DNA of 64,000 nt from Sorex araneus (taxonomy: Eukaryota > Chordata > Mammalia > Eulipotyphla > Soricidae). The notes below the pieces were generated by a model. The model was not told the DNA's origin and made no database searches. It saw nothing but the letters and a program-made list of their open reading frames with translations. The position numbers and the translations under genes are program-made. The stretch lies in assembly GCF_027595985.1 (NCBI RefSeq), contig NC_073311.1:32705557-32769556 (forward strand), in the 5' to 3' direction. Below, in pieces: positions 7,375 to 64,000 of this stretch (position 1 is the first letter of the stretch; the number at the start of each line of letters is the position of its first letter).

Positions 7375-7507
7375 TTTTGCTTTGTTCTTTGGTTTTGGTT
7401 TCCAGGCCACACCTGGGGTTGCTCATGGCTTCTGCTGGCTCTGCTTTCCAGAATCACTAAGGTGGTGCGAGGGATGGGGCCCTAACCACTATACTATCAT
7501 TCTGGCC
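7375..7507 (-). repeat. Old type A SINE
   Basis: Minus-strand copy. CCACACCTGGGGTTGCTCATGG corresponds to the 3-prime end and CTATACTATCATTCTGGCCC to the 5-prime end. The centre is shortened and diverged. Its last bases lie at the left edge of a 168-bp tandem duplication. Confidence 0.65.
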
Positions 7508-7833
7508 CATTATTTAATTTCTTAACTATTTTTTCTTAAAAATATGATATAATGGATAAGATGCTTATTCAATTGAGCAGCTTAGGAGAAGTAAATGAAA
7601 AAGAAAAAATAATTTACAAAGTGCCTAGAACATAATATATGTTCAATAAACACTATATTCTCCTTCTTTCTGGCCCATTATTTAATTTCTTAACTATTTT
7701 TTCTTAAAAATATGATATAATGGATAAGATGCTTATTCAATTGAGCAGCTTAGGAGAAGTAAATGAAAAAGAAAAAATAATTTACAAAGTGCCTAGAACA
7801 TAATATATGTTAAATAAACACTATATTCTCCTT
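7500..7833. repeat. Recent tandem duplication, 168-bp period
   Basis: Bases 7500-7665 recur at 7668-7833. I find one mismatch in 166 positions (C at 7644, A at 7812). The unit is unique-looking AT-rich DNA beginning TTCTGGCCCATTATT. The near identity means the duplication is young, still polymorphic, or an assembly artefact. Confidence 0.95.
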
Positions 7834-8740
7834 GTTCTCTTTGTCTTCCACTTTCATCAATGTAGTTTGACTTTTTTCATTTGGTCTTTGAAAACATAAT
7901 TTAAGTTAATGAGACTTACCTTAAGATCACTATGATTTATAAATGGAGACTTGCAAAGCTGTTATTTTTAGTTATTATTTGAGACAGTATCAAAGCCTGA
8001 TGAAAATATCACTGGACTGAACTCTATCAAGGGTAGAGCACTACCTCTCACATATTGATATTTGAACCCTTGCATACACCCCATCAGTCTTACAAAAAGC
8101 AACATTTACCCTCAGCAAAATTTTTGGTGAATTTTTAAAATGTGCTTTCCAAATTTTATATTTTAAAGGTTTCTTTTTAAGAAACATATGCTATCCCAGC
8201 TGTCTACATTTAATAAAGCAACAACTGACATAAGGAAGAAGAAATAGGATATAACATTTGAAGGTTCTTCATAGACACTGGAGACCGAATAATATGGATG
8301 AAGTTAAGTCAGGTTCTCATGTAAGCTAAGGGATTGTGAAAAGTAAGATTCCAATATATGTAAAATCCCAGAGTTTCAAAAGCAAAACTGTTTATAACAT
8401 ACATTATAATACACCAGAAAAATCAGGTTAATAAAAAGATGATACCTAACTTTCAGTGTATATAGCATATATTTATCTACACACATTTTGTGATATAAGA
8501 TAAATTAGACGTTTTATAGATACTATTATCCTTGTTGCTCACGACACTTGGTTTTTTGGACTCGTTCAATGGAAACATGAAGAATTTGAGAACATGTTTA
8601 AAGAAAGTAGTTCAAGTAATATATCACAAAATACAGACATTTTAAAATGAACCCATGAAGGGTTTGATAGAGTGAACAAGAATCTTAACGAGGTCAGAGA
8701 AAAATGGGAAGTGGGCGAAGGGTGTTCTCCTTCTTGAAGT
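7834..8740. other. Non-coding sequence
   Basis: AT-rich DNA. A stretch near 8035-8100 may be a decayed SINE, but I cannot support that. Confidence 0.5.
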
Positions 8741-25785: not shown

Positions 25786-27087
25786 CTAACAGTTAATGTC
25801 CTGTACCCTGAAAAGGTCCTGAGATACTTGGTGCATGTTTTCTGGGCTAAAATAAGTACAGTTTATAAAGTTCTCTCTCTCTTCTTCAGCCCCAACTAGG
25901 ATTGATAAAGGCATTTCCAGAGGTAAATGATTCTCTTCCCCCCTCTGCTCCTGCTCTTCTTCCTCTTCCTCCCCCATCTCCTCCTCTTCCCCCTCAACCT
26001 CCACCTCTTCCTCTTCAAACTCCTCTTCCTCCCCCTCTTCCATAAAGTCATCATCTCCATAGTCAACCTCCTCTTCTCCACCGGCTTCTGCCTCTTCATC
26101 CACCTCCTCTCCCGCTCCATCCTCCTCTTCCTCCTCTTCTTCCTCCTCCTGCTCCTCACTCTCAGAGTCTTTCTCACCGCACTCCTCACAGCACCTCTTA
26201 TGCTCCTCCTCCTCCTCCCCTTCCTCCTCCTCCTCCTCCTCCTCCTCTTCTTCTTCCTCCTCCTCTACTCCTTTCCCTTCTTCTTCCTCCGCGTGCAGTG
26301 CCTCGGGATACGGCTCAACCTGGTGGGGGTCGGGGCTGAAGACCAGCGAGGGCTCCTGCATGAAACTGAACAGAGACGCGGGCAGCTGGTCGTCGTCCTC
26401 GCCGCCGCCGGCAGGGGGCGTGCCCCCGGCGCCGCCCCGCAGCGCCCGCTCGGCCTGCCGCTGCCGCTCCAGCTCCTCCTGCTGCCGCATGTCCTCGTAG
26501 ATCTGGTTCATGATGAACTGGGTGGTGTTGCGCGGCGCCCGCATGCCCGGCGCCCGCCAGCCGTACAGGTTGACGGGCCGCAGCAGCTTGCTCAGGTCCA
26601 CGGGCGGGTTGGTGGGGCTGGCGCGGCGCGCTGGGCGGCGCAGCCAGCGGCCCCGGCGACCCCAGCGCTTCTTGCGGCCCGGGGCCCGGCGCCAGACCGG
26701 GGTGCGCGGGCCGCGCCAGCAGGAGCAGCAGCAGGGGCAGCGCGGGTGCGGGCCGCACAGCCAGAACACGGGCACGCGGGCGGGCGGCTTGCGGAACCCC
26801 GCGGGAGGTGGGTGCCAGGGGCCACTCCAGTGCCCCCAGTTGGAGTACAGGGCCCAGTAGGGCCAGCGGGGTGGCGGACACCAGGGGCCCAGGCCGGGCG
26901 GTGGCTTCGCCTTTTTTCTCGGGGGCTCGTACTCGGCCTTGGGACGGTAGCTGCAGCGCTGCTTGTACGTCGGGGCGCCCCCGCGCCTCTGCTGGCAGGA
27001 AGACCAGGTGGGAAACGGCATCGAGGCTGCCCAGCCGCCGCCGCCCAGGTTGAGAGGGTTCTCCCTCTGGTCCGGGATCTGGGTCAT
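25786..27087 (-). CDS. CCER1: CCER1, coiled-coil glutamate-rich protein 1
   Basis: Intact single-exon frame of 433 codons; the human protein, as I remember it, has about 406. The start is the ATG at 27087 (MTQ...), the first in-frame ATG, with A at -3; the open frame extends upstream only through non-ATG codons. Residues 1-125 are rich in Gly, Pro, Trp and Cys, with a CPCCCSCW cluster near 117-124. Residues 136-156 are strongly basic (GRKKRWGRRGR). Residues 182-204 (RAPRNTTQFIMNQIYEDM) are the part most like human CCER1 and run into a short helical stretch. Residues 266-384 are dominated by Glu, including an E15 run. The C-terminus (HLPLEMPLSI ... QDINC) again matches the human protein. CCER1 is testis-specific and has been reported to form nuclear condensates in haploid germ cells that support histone-to-protamine replacement; that is family knowledge, not visible here. 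EPYC lies upstream on the same strand, as in human. Confidence 0.96.
   Translation of the reverse strand: MTQIPDQRENPLNLGGGGWAASMPFPTWSSCQQRRGGAPTYKQRCSYRPKAEYEPPRKKAKPPPGLGPWCPPPRWPYWALYSNWGHWSGPWHPPPAGFRKPPARVPVFWLCGPHPRCPCCCSCWRGPRTPVWRRAPGRKKRWGRRGRWLRRPARRASPTNPPVDLSKLLRPVNLYGWRAPGMRAPRNTTQFIMNQIYEDMRQQEELERQRQAERALRGGAGGTPPAGGGEDDDQLPASLFSFMQEPSLVFSPDPHQVEPYPEALHAEEEEGKGVEEEEEEEEEEEEEEEGEEEEEHKRCCEECGEKDSESEEQEEEEEEEEEDGAGEEVDEEAEAGGEEEVDYGDDDFMEEGEEEEFEEEEVEVEGEEEEMGEEEEEEQEQRGEENHLPLEMPLSILVGAEEERENFINCTYFSPENMHQVSQDLFRVQDINC
26005..26295 (-). repeat. CCER1: Glutamate-coding GAG/GAA repeat within CCER1
   Basis: On the plus strand this is a TCC/TTC-rich tract. At 26221-26265 it gives 15 consecutive Glu codons, eight of them GAG in a row with GAA at the flanks. 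Several shorter runs follow. Such codon repeats vary in length by slippage without shifting the frame. Confidence 0.9.
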
Positions 27088-27469
27088 GATGCAGGCAGCT
27101 CTGAGAGGTCTAAGCGGCAGCCCACCCCGCCCCGAAGGTGGCAAGTCTGGCCCGGTTCCTACAGTCGTTAGAGCCTCACCCCCCGGAAGGCGGCTGGCAG
27201 CGCCACGTGCCCGGCACTGGAATCACAACTTCGGGTTCCGGGGGGCTCTCTCGGTTCTGCTCTCTCGCTCTGCGTCGCAATATCTTCTCGCGGGGTTGTC
27301 TCGCCCAGGTGGATTGGGTGGAACTGGGGCTGCCTAAGGATGCAGTGGGGAGGGAGGAAGGTATTGGCGGGCGCAGCTCAGTGACACCCGCTCCCGGGCC
27401 CCCCAACACACCCGCCTCTGCCGAGGAGGCGCTGGCCGGGGTTCGGGGAGGCCGGGGGTTGCGCTTTAC

Positions 27470-33081: not shown

Positions 33082-33253
33082 GGGACTGGAACGATAGCAC
33101 AGCAGGTAGGGCATTTGCCTTGCACGTGGCTGACCCGGGTTCGATTCCCAGCATCCCATATGGTCCCCCGAGTGCCGCTAGGAGTAATTCCTGAGCACAG
33201 AGCCAGGAGTAATGCCTGAGCATCGCCGAGTGTGACCCCAAAAGCAAAAGAAC
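33082..33253 (+). repeat. Type A SINE with target-site duplication
   Basis: Plus-strand full-length copy, with perfect box B GGGTTCGATTCC and GAGTGTGACCCCAAAAGC. A 15-bp repeat AAAATTTGCATTTAT (33067-33081) recurs at 33254-33268 with one mismatch. Confidence 0.95.
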
Positions 33254-39679: not shown

Positions 39680-40068
39680 TTGGAAGCTGACCTCATATGC
39701 TGGGGTAAAAGGCATCTGGGATAGAAAATGGACCACCAGGTAAATATGCTTGGAGGGCTCGCTCATAATGGGATATGTGTTTTGAAAGTAGAATATAGAC
39801 CAAACATGATGGCCCATTACCACCTGTATTGCAAACCATCACACCCAAAAGGAGAGAGAGAGTAAAAGGGAACTGCTTGCCACACGAGTTGGGGGGCAGG
39901 AGATGGAATAAGGGTGTCAGGAGGTGTACTGGGAACATTGGTGGATTGGTGGTGGAGAATAGACACTAGTGGAGGAATGGGTACTGGATCTTTGTATAAC
40001 TGAAACCTAATCACCAAAGTTTGTAAGTCTGTAACTGTATCTCTTGGTGAGTCATTAAAAAAAAAAAA
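39680..40068 (+). repeat. L1-like 3-prime end, plus strand
   Basis: Contains GGGGCAGGAGATGGAATAAGGG, ACACTAGTGGAGGAATGGG, TATAACTGAAACCTAATCACC and CTTGGTGAGTCATTAAAAAA. This is the same order of blocks as at 49880-50445 and 62600-62810. The short frames across it are chance. Confidence 0.75.
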
Positions 40069-48200: not shown

Positions 48201-51200
48201 CTCTTGAAGCTGGGGCAGCCTTCTGAATGCATCTTCATCAATCTCAGATATTAAATTCGATGTCAAATCAATTCGTCTTAAATCATCTAGAAGAAAAAAT
48301 GGAGAAAGCAGTTCAATCACATGTAATATTTTTGGTCACATAGAAATATGATTATGACTGGTCCCATGTGCAAAAAAAATTAAATATGAATTAAACCGTT
48401 GGAAGCAACAGAAATGATTAGTTCTAATTTATAAAATGTTATTGTTTCTACTGAATATGCTTCATATTTGTAAGAAAGAACAAACTTTAGCAAAGGACTT
48501 GACATGTTATCTGTAAAATTTCTGTTGTTTTCTTTATATTCAAAACTTATAATAGATTTTACCAATTATACTCCAAACTTTTAATAGATTTTACGAATCA
48601 ATATATCTTCCTTTTGTGATATTGTGCTGTACTTTCCAAGACCAAAGTTCCATTAGTGTTAAAATATAAAGGCATTGGGCCTAGGGGAATGCTCAGAGGA
48701 CTGAACAAATACTTTGTGGACAGAGTTTTGCACACAAAGTATGCTCCAGTTCCTGGCACCTCAAGGTCCCAGGTACTGTGGGAGTGACCTTCCAGCACAG
48801 AGCCAGGAGTAGCACTGAGTACCAGCAGTGTCTCTCAAAATCAAGCAAACAAGGATATAAAAAGTTTACGCAGAATTTTTTATAGAATTAATTTCATGAT
48901 GGAAACTGCTACCAAAATTAAGTATGGCAATAATTATCAAAATAGAAGATGGCAATAATTATTTAGAACTAAGACATACATTTGTCGATCAAGAAGAACT
49001 AATTGATGGAATCCAATTCAAACAAGTCAAATATTTAGTAAGTTTATGGCCATGACATTTTTTTCAATCAATGTCAAAACATCTAATATTGAAAAAACAT
49101 GCAAAATAAAATTGCTTTAATGAAAGATTATTGAATTGTTTTTAAAAAATCAACAACTATGTAGTATCTAAGAACCTTTAATTGTTTATTGTATCATGAC
49201 CAAATATTCAAATATTTTATGGGGAAATTAACTTATGAGACAAATCTACTTATATTCATTTTTCCCTTCTCAGTGCCAACATTTTTAAGACAGTTAAAGA
49301 AAAGGAGATAAATGCAGCCATCCATACTTAGGTTTGCAAAGTCATTTTTGTTGATCTTCTTGATTCTGTTAAAGCGAGAATAGAAATAGCCAGTGCTCCT
49401 TGGAAGTGGAGGGATTGCATCAAGTTCATGGTCATCACAGTATATGGTGGTACTTATACAAGTACATAGTAGGCAGGTCGGGAAGTCTGAAAGGAAGAGA
49501 AAAGTAATGTGTAAATAACAAAAACAAGTCTTAAGAAATGATTTAATGTGTTTTAAAGAACATTGGAACCTCACTGAGCCATCTGGTATATTTTATGTTT
49601 TTCCAATACAGCTCATGAAAATGGATATTGATGGCAACTAGCCAAGTAAACTGTCCTAGCAATTAGCATATAATTTGTCATTTAAAAAAGTTTAATTACT
49701 GAGTGGGTTCAACATGGCTGTGTTTTCCTACCTACTAGAAATTTTATTTTTAAGTATTCTATTTTCAAACATAAATATTATAATTGTGATTATGTTTATA
49801 TAGTTTTAATTGAGCATTATTCAGCTGTTTGGAAAATGAAGTTATGAAATTTGCTTATAAATTGATGGACTTGTGGAATATCGTGGTGAGTGAAATGAGT
49901 CAGAAGGAAAGTATTAGACATAGAATGGTTGCACTCATTTGTGGGATTAAAAAAAATAAACATAATATGAGACCAATACCCATGGACAGAAGAAACAAGG
50001 GACAGAAGGGACAGGAGGATTGGTCCACGGTAGGAAGCCTGCCTCAAGGACTGAAGAAAAGGCAGTTGGTACACAGAAGGGACTGATATGACAAAGATAG
50101 TTGGAAATGATCATGCCCCAAAGGTGAGAGAGAGAGAGAGACAGAGAGACAGACAGAGAGAGAGAGACAGAGAGACAGAGAGACAGAAACAGAGAGACAG
50201 AGAGACAGAGACAGAAACAGAGACAGAGACATAGGGAGAGACAGAAAGAAGGAGAATGTCTGCCATAGGGAGAGGCTGGTGGAGGGTGGCAGGAGGAAAA
50301 CTGGGGACATTGTCGGTGGGAAATGTACACTGGTGGAAGGATGGGTGTTGGAACACTAATGAATAAAACCTGATCACAATCAGCTTTGTAACTCTGTATA
50401 TCTCATGGTGATTCAAAAAATAAAATAAAATAAAAAATTAAAATGAATCATTATAGATAATGCCTTATTAGTTTTTGGTTCAATATTAACTACCTCACCA
50501 AAACAAAATCTCACTCAAGAAAAAGGATAATAAGCATTAATAATGTTGAATAGAAGTTATTCAACATTAATTTACTAAAATGTTCCATATATACACTATA
50601 TATGTATATATACACTATATATACTATATATATGCTAGCAACTGAAATAGTAATGAGCAATGAGTAATGTTTTATGCTCTGCTATGTAAGATCATTGTCA
50701 ATGACAAATAAATGAAATGACCATGGTGATAAATTTCATGACATATTATATGAGCAATGTTCCAATTAACTAAAGGATTTTGAACCAGTCTGAGAGCCAC
50801 AGTTCTCTGAGAAGAAAATATAGAATTTGCTTTGCAGAGGTCAGGATAAAATATGCCAGCAGAGGAGGACATACCAAGGACATGCCACGTTCCTTCTCTT
50901 TGAAAAGGCTGAAAGACATCAATCTGGTTAGAGCAGAGTGAGCTTCAGAATGTGTTGGACAGGGCTTACTGGAAAGATCTAGATTGAATCATAGGTTTGG
51001 CCCCTTATTGTATATATACAAAAACAAACAAAGCAGGAATGGAACCATAGTTCAGCAGGTCAGGTTGTTTTCCTTGTTTGAGGCCAACCTGGTTCAATCC
51101 CAGGCATCCCATCTGACTCCCTGAACACCTCCAGGAGAGATTCCTGTATGTAGAGCCTGGAGCAACTCCTAAGCATCTCCAGATGTGACCCCTAAACACC

Positions 51201-57391: not shown

Positions 57392-57638
57392 ACACTGCAC
57401 TGTACTGTCGTTCCGTTGTTCATTAATTTGCTAGAGAGACCACCAGTAACATCTCCATTGTGAGACTTGTTATTGTTTTTGGCATATTGAATAAGCCACA
57501 GGGAGCTTGCCAGGTTGTGCCCTGCAGGTGGGATACTCTCAATAGCTTGCTGGGCTCTCTGAGAGGGACGGAGGAATCAAACCCAGGTCAGTTGCGTGCA
57601 AGGCAAATGCTCTACCGACTGTGCTATTGCTCCAGTCC
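57392..57638 (-). repeat. Type B SINE with target-site duplication
   Basis: Full-length copy. AATTGACACAT at 57378-57388 recurs after the element as AATTGATACAT (57639-57649), one mismatch. Confidence 0.94.
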
Positions 57639-61344: not shown

Positions 61345-61480
61345 GATCTGGGAACAGGAGAAATTGTACAGCAAGTATGGTACCACATACAGTCCCCAGA
61401 GAGCCACCCAGAAAGATTGCTGAGCCCGGATCCAGGAGTAAGCCCTTCACATTGCTGGGTGTAGCCCCCCAAAAAACAAT
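61345..61480 (+). repeat. Type A SINE inside the L1
   Basis: Diverged plus-strand copy: AGGAGAAATTGTACAGCAAG, CCAGAGAGCCACCCAGAAAG, GGATCCAGGAGTAAGCC, CTGGGTGTAGCCCCCC and an A-rich tail, into which the next element inserted. Confidence 0.85.
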
Positions 61481-61491
61481 AAAGAAAATCA

Positions 61492-62810
61492 GCCCATTTC
61501 TCCGCGCCCGCACCCCCAGAATGACTGACGAAGAGGATGGAGCTGCTTGGGACACCGGCAGCCCACCAGCAACCTGCACACAGCACCTACCCCACTTCTG
61601 AGCACAAAATGGAGAGACGCACCCAAGTGCGCGGCGCGGCTGGCGGGGGATCGAGGGCGGGGAAGTACCGGTCTCCGCCCACATCGGACACTTAAAGAGA
61701 GTGCAGGCACGTGGGCTTTCCCATTTCTCCGCGCCCGCACCCCCAGAATGACTGACGAAGAGGATGGAGCTGCTTGGGACACCGGCAGCCCACCAGCAAC
61801 CTGCAGTATGTGACTTGAGAGTCTCCGCCAGGTCCCCCGTGCGGAAATCTCTCTCTCTCTCCTTCAACTTTTTCCCTGGACTTTAGACAGAAACCCAGAA
61901 CCGCGCGGCCGCGACAGCGCGCGACCTAATGTCATCTTAGTATCAGCAATATGTAATGGTTCCTTCTTAATGGGTCGGACTTTTGTGGGTGATCCTAACA
62001 AGAATAGTAAGTATTTTGCTGAAATATTGAAGGCAATCAAAATGGTAGCCATCTCTCTAGACTGAACTAAGCTATATCCCCACGCCGGCTGAGAAGAAAT
62101 ATCCTTCTATCTCGGGAAGAAACGCGGCGTGGTGTCAAACATAGTGTGATGTCCATTAAGCAAACAGACCTGGTGGCGTGGGAATGGGAAATAAGGGGAA
62201 AAATTAGGTACATGGACCAGCGGGACGCTGGTGGTATCTCGAGCCGGAGCCGATATTAGCGCAAGAGCTTTGGTTCCAGAAACTGCTTCCAGACACTCTA
62301 CTAGACTATCAACTAAGCCAGAGCCCCACGCCGGCTGATGACGGGAAATAACCATCCTCTTCGGTTTTTTTCCCTTTGTCAGACAGCGTGGCGATTACTA
62401 AACAGGCGTGAACTCGGTGGCGCGGGGCAAGGGGGAAAAAGAAAAGTTATGTAACAAACAGCAGGACTTAATATCTCTATATGCTTAGTAATGGAGAATT
62501 ATCAAATGCCTCATTGGCAATACGACTGTCTTTTTATTTTTGGGGGGAAACCCCAGCAACAGTAGTGAGTTGTGTGTTGAAACATGGGATGTAATCGAGA
62601 TAAGTGCAAATGAAGTGAAACTTATCACGTACAAGGGTGGGGACTAGGGAGGTGGGAGGGGGCGGCAGATATACTGGGGGGGTTGGGGATGGAAGATGGG
62701 CACTGGTGAAGGGAGGGGTGTTTGAATATTGTATAACTGACATAATCCTGAGAACTTTGTAACCCTCCACTTGGTGATTCAATAAAAAAAATAAAAAATT
62801 AAAAAAAAAA
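61492..62810 (+). mobile_element. ORF-less 1.3-kb retroposon with monomer-like 5-prime repeats
   Basis: Bounded by an 11-bp target-site duplication AAAGAAAATCA (61481-61491 and 62811-62821) and ending in poly-A. The 5-prime part is CpG-rich. An 86-bp block (61493-61578) recurs without a mismatch at 61720-61805, a 227-bp period like the promoter monomers of some L1 5-prime UTRs. Two imperfect repeats share ACTAAGC, CCCCACGCCGGCTGA and a GGTGGCG-rich end (about 62067-62205 and 62310-62445). The last 200 bases (GGTGGGGACTAGGGAGG, AAGATGGGCACTGGTG, TATAACTGACATAATCC, TTGGTGATTCAATAAAA) match the L1-like end module. No long frame has reverse-transcriptase features. Frames across the 86-bp repeats (for example 61229-61867) are by-products. 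Confidence 0.85.
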
Positions 62811-62821
62811 AAAGAAAATCA

Positions 62822-64000
62822 AACAAAACTGATTCACAGCAGTTTTCTCAAATGAGAGACTTGATAAACCAGAAGAGAATGGTTCAGTATTATAAAACAT
62901 CTTAATGGTATGAGCACCTCACCCAAAATACTCACCCTAACTAGACTTTCATTCATGTTTAAAGGAATGAGCTCCACAGAGAAGCAAAAATTCAGGAACT
63001 TTATAGCCTTGAAACCAACTTTCTGAGACCCATGGAAAGGGCTTACTTAAGACAAGACAAACAACAAACACATAAGCTATACAGAATGATAAAATAAAGA
63101 AAAAGAAAACTTTTTTCATGCCAGTGATCCCAGTCAATATCAAACGGCCTTAATATACCAATAAAGAAATAACAGCAGGGTGAATCATACAATTGAACCC
63201 AACTTTCTGCTGCTCACAAGAGATACATTTGAATAGTAAGGGCAAGCACAGGCTCAGAATCAAAGGCTGGGAACCAATATTTCAAGCAAACAATTTCCTT
63301 TTAATGGCCAGGTTAACCATATTTATATTAGACAACATAGACTTTGAAGTTTTAAAAAAAAGTTTTAAAGGAGAGAGGAATGATCTGTATAACAGGAAGA
63401 GTGAACTCTCCTAAACATTGTGCACCTCATTAGGGACCATCAAAATATTCAAACAACTGCTAAAAGGCCTCAAAGAAGATATTGACAGAAATTAATAGTA
63501 GCTGGAGTCTTCCACACTACTTTGTCATCTCTGGGTCTATCAACCAGTCTATAACTGAACAAAGCTTTGAAAGAAGAAATAAGATGTGAGCCAAATTTAT
63601 AAATATATGAGTCTACATCCCCAAACTTAAAAACACATTCTTTCCCAAGGAAAATGATTTATTCTCCAATAGAGACTGCACTGTTCAAAAAACATGCTTC
63701 CATAAAATCAAGAAGATAAAAATTATATCAACTATCCTTTTAGACCATGATCCATTGACAGTGGAAGTTAATCAAAAACAGAAACAAGAGGAAATAACCA
63801 AATACTTGGAAATTAAATAACTCATCACTGAACAAACAGTGGGTCAAGAAGAATATCAGAAAGGAAATCAAAAGATTTCTGGAAACAGAAGAGAATGAAG
63901 AAATGAACTGCAAAATATAAGGAACACCAAAGGCCGAGTTAAAAGTAAAGTTCATAACAATGTAGTGATTCATGAGAAAACAATAAAAGTCCACATAAAT
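62822..64000 (+). repeat. Decayed L1, rest of ORF1 region and ORF2 endonuclease start
   Basis: Continues the element interrupted at 61481. 62830-62960 matches the end of the ORF1 region. 63190-63414 encodes SQEIHL, HRLRIKGW and IFQAN-like segments of the L1 apurinic endonuclease. 63740-64000 matches the downstream endonuclease region (CTTGGAAATTAAATAACTC, ACAGTGGGTCAAGAAGAA). Frameshifts and stops make it inactive. It runs out of the window. Confidence 0.8.

Follow-up and report, generated by a model that had tools for sequence, protein, structure and literature searches.

The final kilobases of a 64,000 nt window from the common shrew, Sorex araneus (contig NC_073311.1; the window is the whole stretch of DNA analysed, and all coordinates refer to it), contain a 1319 nt element, at positions 61492-62810 on the plus strand, that was inserted through target-primed reverse transcription (TPRT) of the L1 type. 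With a confidence a little short of even, we interpret it as the young copy of a non-coding, non-autonomous retroposon that owes its mobilisation to a shrew L1 acting in trans, most likely a derivative of L1 from which the open reading frames (ORFs) have been deleted. Its anatomy suggests that the terminal ~140 nt of an L1 3' untranslated region (UTR) were joined to a layered promoter region, in which young 227 nt monomers lie upstream of the remnants of an older ~245 nt array. A preliminary description, made by inspection, had listed an 11 bp duplication of the target with a poly-A tail, a 5' repeat of 227 bp period with an 86 bp overlap free of mismatches, a second internal repeat pair, an L1-like 3' end and nothing that codes; each of these features was recovered in the analyses below.

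The element is bounded by an exact 11 nt target site duplication (TSD), AAAGAAAATCA, with its 5' copy at 61481-61491 and its 3' copy at 62811-62821, both read on the plus strand. As a control for chance, 8,286 places in the window, one per 7 nt, were examined for an 11-mer that recurs 1319 nt further on (allowing ±5 nt), and none had one. The TSD implies a bottom-strand nick of the form CTTT/AT, and the element ends in an A-rich tail at 62787-62810, within which lie AATAAA (62790) and ATTAAA (62798). Sizes of approximately 6-25 bp are given for the TSDs of L1-mediated insertions (PMC5860796), and a CTTT/AC nick is given for one SVA-type insertion (PMC4859970); the size of the duplication, the 3' A-rich tail and the TTTT/A-like nick are thus all as expected of TPRT. 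At the 5' junction, a single extra G (61492) lies outside both the TSD and the adjacent repeat, as T precedes the second copy of that repeat and A follows the 3' copy of the TSD. An untemplated 5' G in L1 and SVA insertions has been described as a copy of the cap, and hence the mark of a capped, full-length template (PMC4859970); this G is possibly of the same cap-derived origin, although a single base is weak evidence.

No coding sequence was recognised between these boundaries. A Pfam scan of all six frames yielded no family above its cut-off, with DUF3553 on the minus strand (E 0.0032) scoring 17.5 bits against the 20.3 bits needed. Pfam alone is a weak test of coding content, as it also missed a decayed L1 in the flanking sequence (in four of the 12 flank frames, those that were tried), which was detected by a search of PDB, a database that includes the L1 ORF2 protein (ORF2p). 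Comparison of the three plus frames of the element with PDB found no L1 ORF2, each frame giving one match to an unrelated protein (E 0.49-0.70), and no L1 ORF1 family was present according to the six-frame Pfam scan, a weaker test than that applied to ORF2. There is no sense ORF of at least 120 amino acids wholly within the element, and no Rfam family at gathering scores, the only Rfam match listed being a tRNA-like one outside it, at 57569-57633. An ordinary 5'-truncated L1 was consequently rejected, no ORF2 sequence having been found before the tail in the plus frames, as was a captured protein-coding gene or known RNA, given the lack of any Pfam family above cut-off or Rfam family. The preliminary description had allowed that the middle of the element might be L1 ORF sequence; neither L1 ORF2 (PDB) nor an ORF1 family (Pfam) was found there, and the region proved to be largely repeat instead.

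Detectable likeness to L1 is confined to the last ~140 nt, an L1-type 3' end at approximately 62646-62786 on the plus strand that includes AATAAA at 62781. When the whole window was searched with nhmmer using eight pieces of the element as queries, the piece 62631-62786 matched 50273-50419 (E 1e-9), 9685-9544 on the minus strand (E 4e-8) and 39920-40058 (E 3e-7), these matches starting from positions 16, 18 and 35 of the query respectively, and no other window match was listed. Upstream of 50273-50419, a frame aligns with human L1 ORF2p, a protein of 1275 residues, over residues 1234-1274, exactly at the C-terminus; the E-value of 1.1 is not significant alone. G-quadruplex-type runs of G, a known feature of L1 3' UTRs, extend across 62635-62662. 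Taken as a whole, these comparisons make the identification of the tail as L1 good, if not absolute. By eye, the three older L1-type 3' ends in the window are each preceded by GAGA-rich stretches, an observation that may be useful for studying L1 3' UTR turnover in the lineage.

The earlier reading of the element as an ORF-less L1 derivative agrees with its L1 hallmarks, its monomer-like, CpG-rich 5' end, its L1-type 3' end and its lack of a recognised ORF. The accompanying argument, that the element had kept the end recognised by the L1 machinery, needs correction. The L1 3' UTR is dispensable. Mammalian L1 is described as picking up RNA through the poly(A) tail (PMC8535693), unlike the stringent pairs formed by some long and short interspersed nuclear elements (LINEs and SINEs), and so the L1-like 3' end is a mark of ancestry and a source of polyadenylation signals that need not be a recognised end.

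At the opposite end of the element, an 86 nt sequence occurs twice, at 61493-61578 and 61720-61805, with 100% identity and a spacing of 227 nt. This defines a complete 227 nt putative promoter monomer (61493-61719) followed by a second, 3'-truncated one of 86 nt (61720-61805), on the plus strand, such that the GC-rich monomer region amounts to 1.38 monomers. Simple motif matches place TTAAAG at 61692 and an E-box, CACGTG, at 61708, both near the end of the complete monomer. The partial monomer runs into a CpG-rich, tether-like stretch (61806-61922, plus strand), delimited by its CpG profile, which may be a degraded unit of the older array described below, being weakly similar to module 2 of that array at 61826-61908. 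The monomer itself showed no kinship with the two modules of the array, 381 and 280 of 500 shuffled sequences scoring as high, nor did its tail with the stretch that follows it (291/500).

Mouse L1 monomers are near 200 nt in length and CpG-rich. The 5' UTRs of the mouse A, Tf and Gf subfamilies are described as tandem monomers followed by a tether (PMC9022269), a layout that the element matches, and the Gf_I tether is reported in the same source to carry a truncated 64 bp monomer at its start, comparable to the partial monomer that precedes the tether-like stretch in the shrew. The likeness is one of layout only: in the shrew element the monomer is 227 nt long, neither ORF1 nor ORF2 follows, and an older, diverged array is found downstream.

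This older array occupies most of the middle of the element and, with the monomers, brings the repeat sequence (monomers, modules and AT-rich segments) to ~925 of the 1319 nt. All of its parts are on the plus strand. Local alignment and nhmmer relate a first AT-rich segment (61923-62044) to a second (62465-62601), while cheap-gap alignment, shuffling and nhmmer identify two modules, the first at 62055-62241 and the second, ~245 nt downstream, at 62299-62482, where its end overlaps the second AT-rich segment. Between the modules is a 57 nt spacer (62242-62298) for which nhmmer detected no relative in the window, and 44 nt separate the second AT-rich segment from the L1-type tail. The modules are 81% identical over 155 aligned bases, with a 28 nt pair as the core of the alignment; that pair is the second internal repeat of the preliminary description, which is therefore real but larger than first noted, lying within modules of ~185 nt. 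Their global score of 74.5 was approached by none of 500 shuffles (mean 6.8, maximum 21.5), and with the first ~60 nt of each removed the score of 35.5 still exceeded the shuffle maximum of 30.5. The AT-rich segments gave a local score of 60, where the best of 500 shuffles reached 50, and found one another in the whole-window nhmmer search with E-values of 4.6e-4 and 5.1e-3 (among the set of eight queries).

On the strength of these alignments, we read the middle of the element as the decayed remains of a tandem array whose period was near 245 nt, and of which two modules are certain; the case is carried by the module pair and the AT-rich pair. An older third unit, first in line, is suggested by its AT-rich part. 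The stretch preceding the first AT-rich segment aligns with module 2 in the same order, weakly (9 and 6 of 500 shuffles scoring as high), and hardly aligns with module 1 (72/500 and 49/500). The modules are predicted to fold as hairpins (62065-62170 and 62311-62420) that have a common CCACGC/GCGTGG closing stem and differing inner stems, with z-scores of -1.12 and -2.30. These hairpins are possibly a conserved RNA structure, although with two copies the resemblance is not significant; as they fold well but not exceptionally, the idea of a special RNA structure was set aside.

The CpG content of the element contrasts sharply with that of its surroundings. It contains 61 CpG dinucleotides and ranks second among the CpG peaks of the window, behind that of the CCER1 gene, and the ratio of observed to expected CpG across its first 444 nt is 0.70-1.12 (0.70 in the monomer region and 1.12 over the following 130 nt). 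The ratio is 0.24 at 61936-62060, recovers to 0.87 around module 1 and 0.82 around module 2, and is 0.16 in the 3' 180 nt; in the flanking kilobases it is 0.08 and 0.03. The retention of CpG relative to the flanks and the exact 86 nt repeat make the element look young. Zero change in the 86 nt repeat bounds its age at approximately 2-8 million years, on the assumptions that the copies were identical at insertion and that substitution rates are 2.2e-9 and 4e-9 per site per year, with or without a tenfold higher rate at CpG; gene conversion between the copies would loosen this bound.

Within the module alignment there are 12 CpG positions, of which four are common to both copies and three have changed to TG, CA or TA. 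Although 19% of their aligned sites differ, both modules keep CpG near expectation. Sequences diverging within a methylated genome would be expected to lose CpG, as the flanks have done, and the divergence between the modules therefore probably arose before insertion, in a source lineage that preserves CpG. Such a lineage could be that of a replicating retroposon, an L1 promoter or a CpG-island transcript.

If the element is an ORF-deleted L1 derivative, RNA polymerase II would start inside or just upstream of a 227 nt monomer, and the transcript would be capped and polyadenylated at the L1-type signal. L1 ORF2p would then take up the capped RNA through its poly(A), and TPRT would insert a copy at an A-rich site. 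L1 5' UTRs can acquire layered promoter regions, and the finding that the middle is largely a decayed tandem array suits a promoter region; because most of the body is repeat, we infer that such a region is a better account of it than a captured host transcript.

Several results weigh against this interpretation. Apart from its layout, the 5' part has no established connection with an L1, and the 5' and middle parts are seen in one copy only within the 64 kb window. The sequence at 62500-62640 does not align with that upstream of an older L1 end in the window (450/500 shuffles scoring as high). As regards the proposed third unit, the first and second units of the old array do not align (200/500), and the score of 58.5 between the whole first and third units, unmatched in 500 shuffles, was equalled or exceeded by 6 of 298 random pairs from the window, real repeats included, and is thus not convincing by itself. 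RNA folding is unremarkable: two long stretches have z-scores of -1.15 and -0.73, and the values of six short stretches range from -0.15 down to -2.42. An excess of transversions over transitions in the modules (18:12) had also been considered as a sign of CpG-preserving divergence, and was dropped because the L1 tail shows the same against an old genomic copy (19:16), as do the AT-rich segments (22:17); the probabilities assigned to the competing explanations are unchanged by its removal, as they derived from the CpG content and layout.

The strongest of the alternatives is a unique L1 copy with an internal deletion or splice: a single transcript of an autonomous shrew L1 would have been deprived of the whole interval separating the 5' UTR from the end of the 3' UTR, either through splicing, as in human SpIREs, or through template jumping, and would have been inserted once, dead on arrival. 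We regard this as unlikely, though a serious competitor; it would give a single copy the same anatomy. L1 copies derived from spliced transcripts are already known, and are reported to account for 131 of 6,609 annotated full-length L1PA1-L1PA6 elements, and SpIREs are likewise internally deleted L1 insertions with a TSD and poly-A (PMC5860796). The element contains donor-like sites at 61806 (GTATGT), 62007 (GTAAGT) and 62565 (GTGAGT), but no acceptor-like site was found in a strict pattern scan, which misses interrupted pyrimidine tracts. Moreover, in the SpIRE classes described in that source, the splice either stays inside the 5' UTR or joins the 5' UTR to ORF1, so that the deletion does not extend beyond ORF1 and, as we read it, ORF2 is retained. 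Loss of both ORFs would be unusual, and in the shrew element neither is recognisable, the part detected being limited to the end of the 3' UTR.

Less probable again is a composite of the SVA or LAVA kind, in which a separate non-coding family with a repeat-rich body not derived from an L1 5' UTR acquired the 3' end of an L1 to serve as terminator. The overall plan is the same: these families are described as non-coding, poly-A-tailed and L1-mobilised, with repeat-rich bodies, and LAVA as carrying L1 fragments in its 3' end (PMC7353768, PMC4859970), comparable to the L1 tail here. However, these are hominoid-specific elements characterised by a hexamer array, an Alu-like domain and a variable number tandem repeat of 36-50 bp units, and no short array of either repeat type was found in the shrew element, the body of which resembles none of the SINEs in the window and matches no Pfam retroviral family; the monomer-tether layout is nearer to that of an L1 5' UTR.

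A chimeric or processed retrocopy is improbable to a greater degree still. Here, ORF2p would have begun on an L1 3' end before changing template to a non-coding RNA from a CpG island, or a host long non-coding RNA that terminates in an L1 polyadenylation signal would have been retrocopied once. Chimeras of RNA and L1 in the same orientation, formed by template switching or RNA ligation, have been described (PMC13174262, PMC4859970), and a CpG-island source would also be compatible with the retention of CpG. Set against this, 61493-62601 consists mostly of repeats, which would be unusual for a host transcript, and the element has no Pfam family above cut-off and no Rfam family. An artefact or chance resemblance can be dismissed, as the exact TSD, the exact 86 nt repeat and the CpG contrast are each far from chance.

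The element may represent an undescribed, shrew-specific family of non-autonomous L1 partners that combines an L1-type promoter, built of successive generations of monomers, with an L1 3' end and nothing else. Such an element would lack ORFs, carry its own RNA polymerase II promoter through each round of retrotransposition and draw on L1 proteins in competition with its parent L1. This we put forward tentatively, as a possibility that is sizeable and still clearly below evens. No ORF-less L1 family of shrews was described in the titles and abstract openings of the open-access literature, among the matches listed, and exact patterns from the element gave no matches in collections of viral contigs and prokaryote genomes, which are not expected to contain shrew DNA. 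Unclassified repeats are reported to make up 17.41% and 9.63% of two shrew assemblies (PMC11544316); repeats in shrews being so poorly curated, a family of this kind could exist without a name. If the internal junction of the element were common to many copies, a middle continuous with a known L1 5' UTR would not make it ordinary; it would then belong to an ORF-deleted L1 family of the sort first envisaged in the preliminary description.

The nearest precedent among non-autonomous mammalian L1 derivatives is HAL1, described as having arisen several times independently (PMC5753468). HAL1 encodes the ORF1 protein, whereas the shrew element has no ORF1 recognised by Pfam and only short sense ORFs, and it is accordingly not assigned to HAL1. 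L1 proteins are described as favouring their own RNA, a cis-preference (PMC5860796), and families of L1 derivatives consisting of a promoter and tail alone would therefore offer a natural way of finding out which features allow an RNA to be copied in trans. As HAL1 keeps ORF1 and SVA is composite, a pure combination of L1 promoter and L1 tail, if that is what the element is, would make it possible to distinguish what the untranslated ends contribute from what the coding region does.

The element landed in a degenerate copy of a tRNA-type SINE (61385-61487, plus strand), inside its A-rich tail, which runs towards 61491. This copy was detected by nhmmer (E 3.7e-13), as a match to the minus strand of a profile built from an alignment of nine copies written antisense to the tRNA gene. 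The SINE, which we take to be the SOR repeat of shrews, is very dense, in keeping with a shrew genome, with 51 profile matches in the window, for instance at 33082-33249, where one copy (33087-33159) is still called as a tRNA-Ala gene by ARAGORN. Downstream of the element, and on the same plus strand, is the decayed L1 mentioned above: a single read-through frame at 63169-63660, with X written at stop codons, matched L1 endonuclease structures in phmmer (best E 4.9e-14) and represents a decayed ORF2 endonuclease. Upstream of the SINE, the sequence resembles an old L1 by eye; one frame compared with PDB and two with Pfam gave no match.

Elsewhere in the window, a 478 amino acid open frame on the minus strand (25786-27222) matches the Pfam family CCER1 (E 9.6e-95), placing the window near the CCER1 gene, about 34 kb from which the element lies, and this frame occupies the strongest CpG peak of the window. 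A direct duplication at 7497-7836, with copies of 172 nt spaced 168 nt apart, is 98% identical, making it the most alike of the repeat pairs listed.
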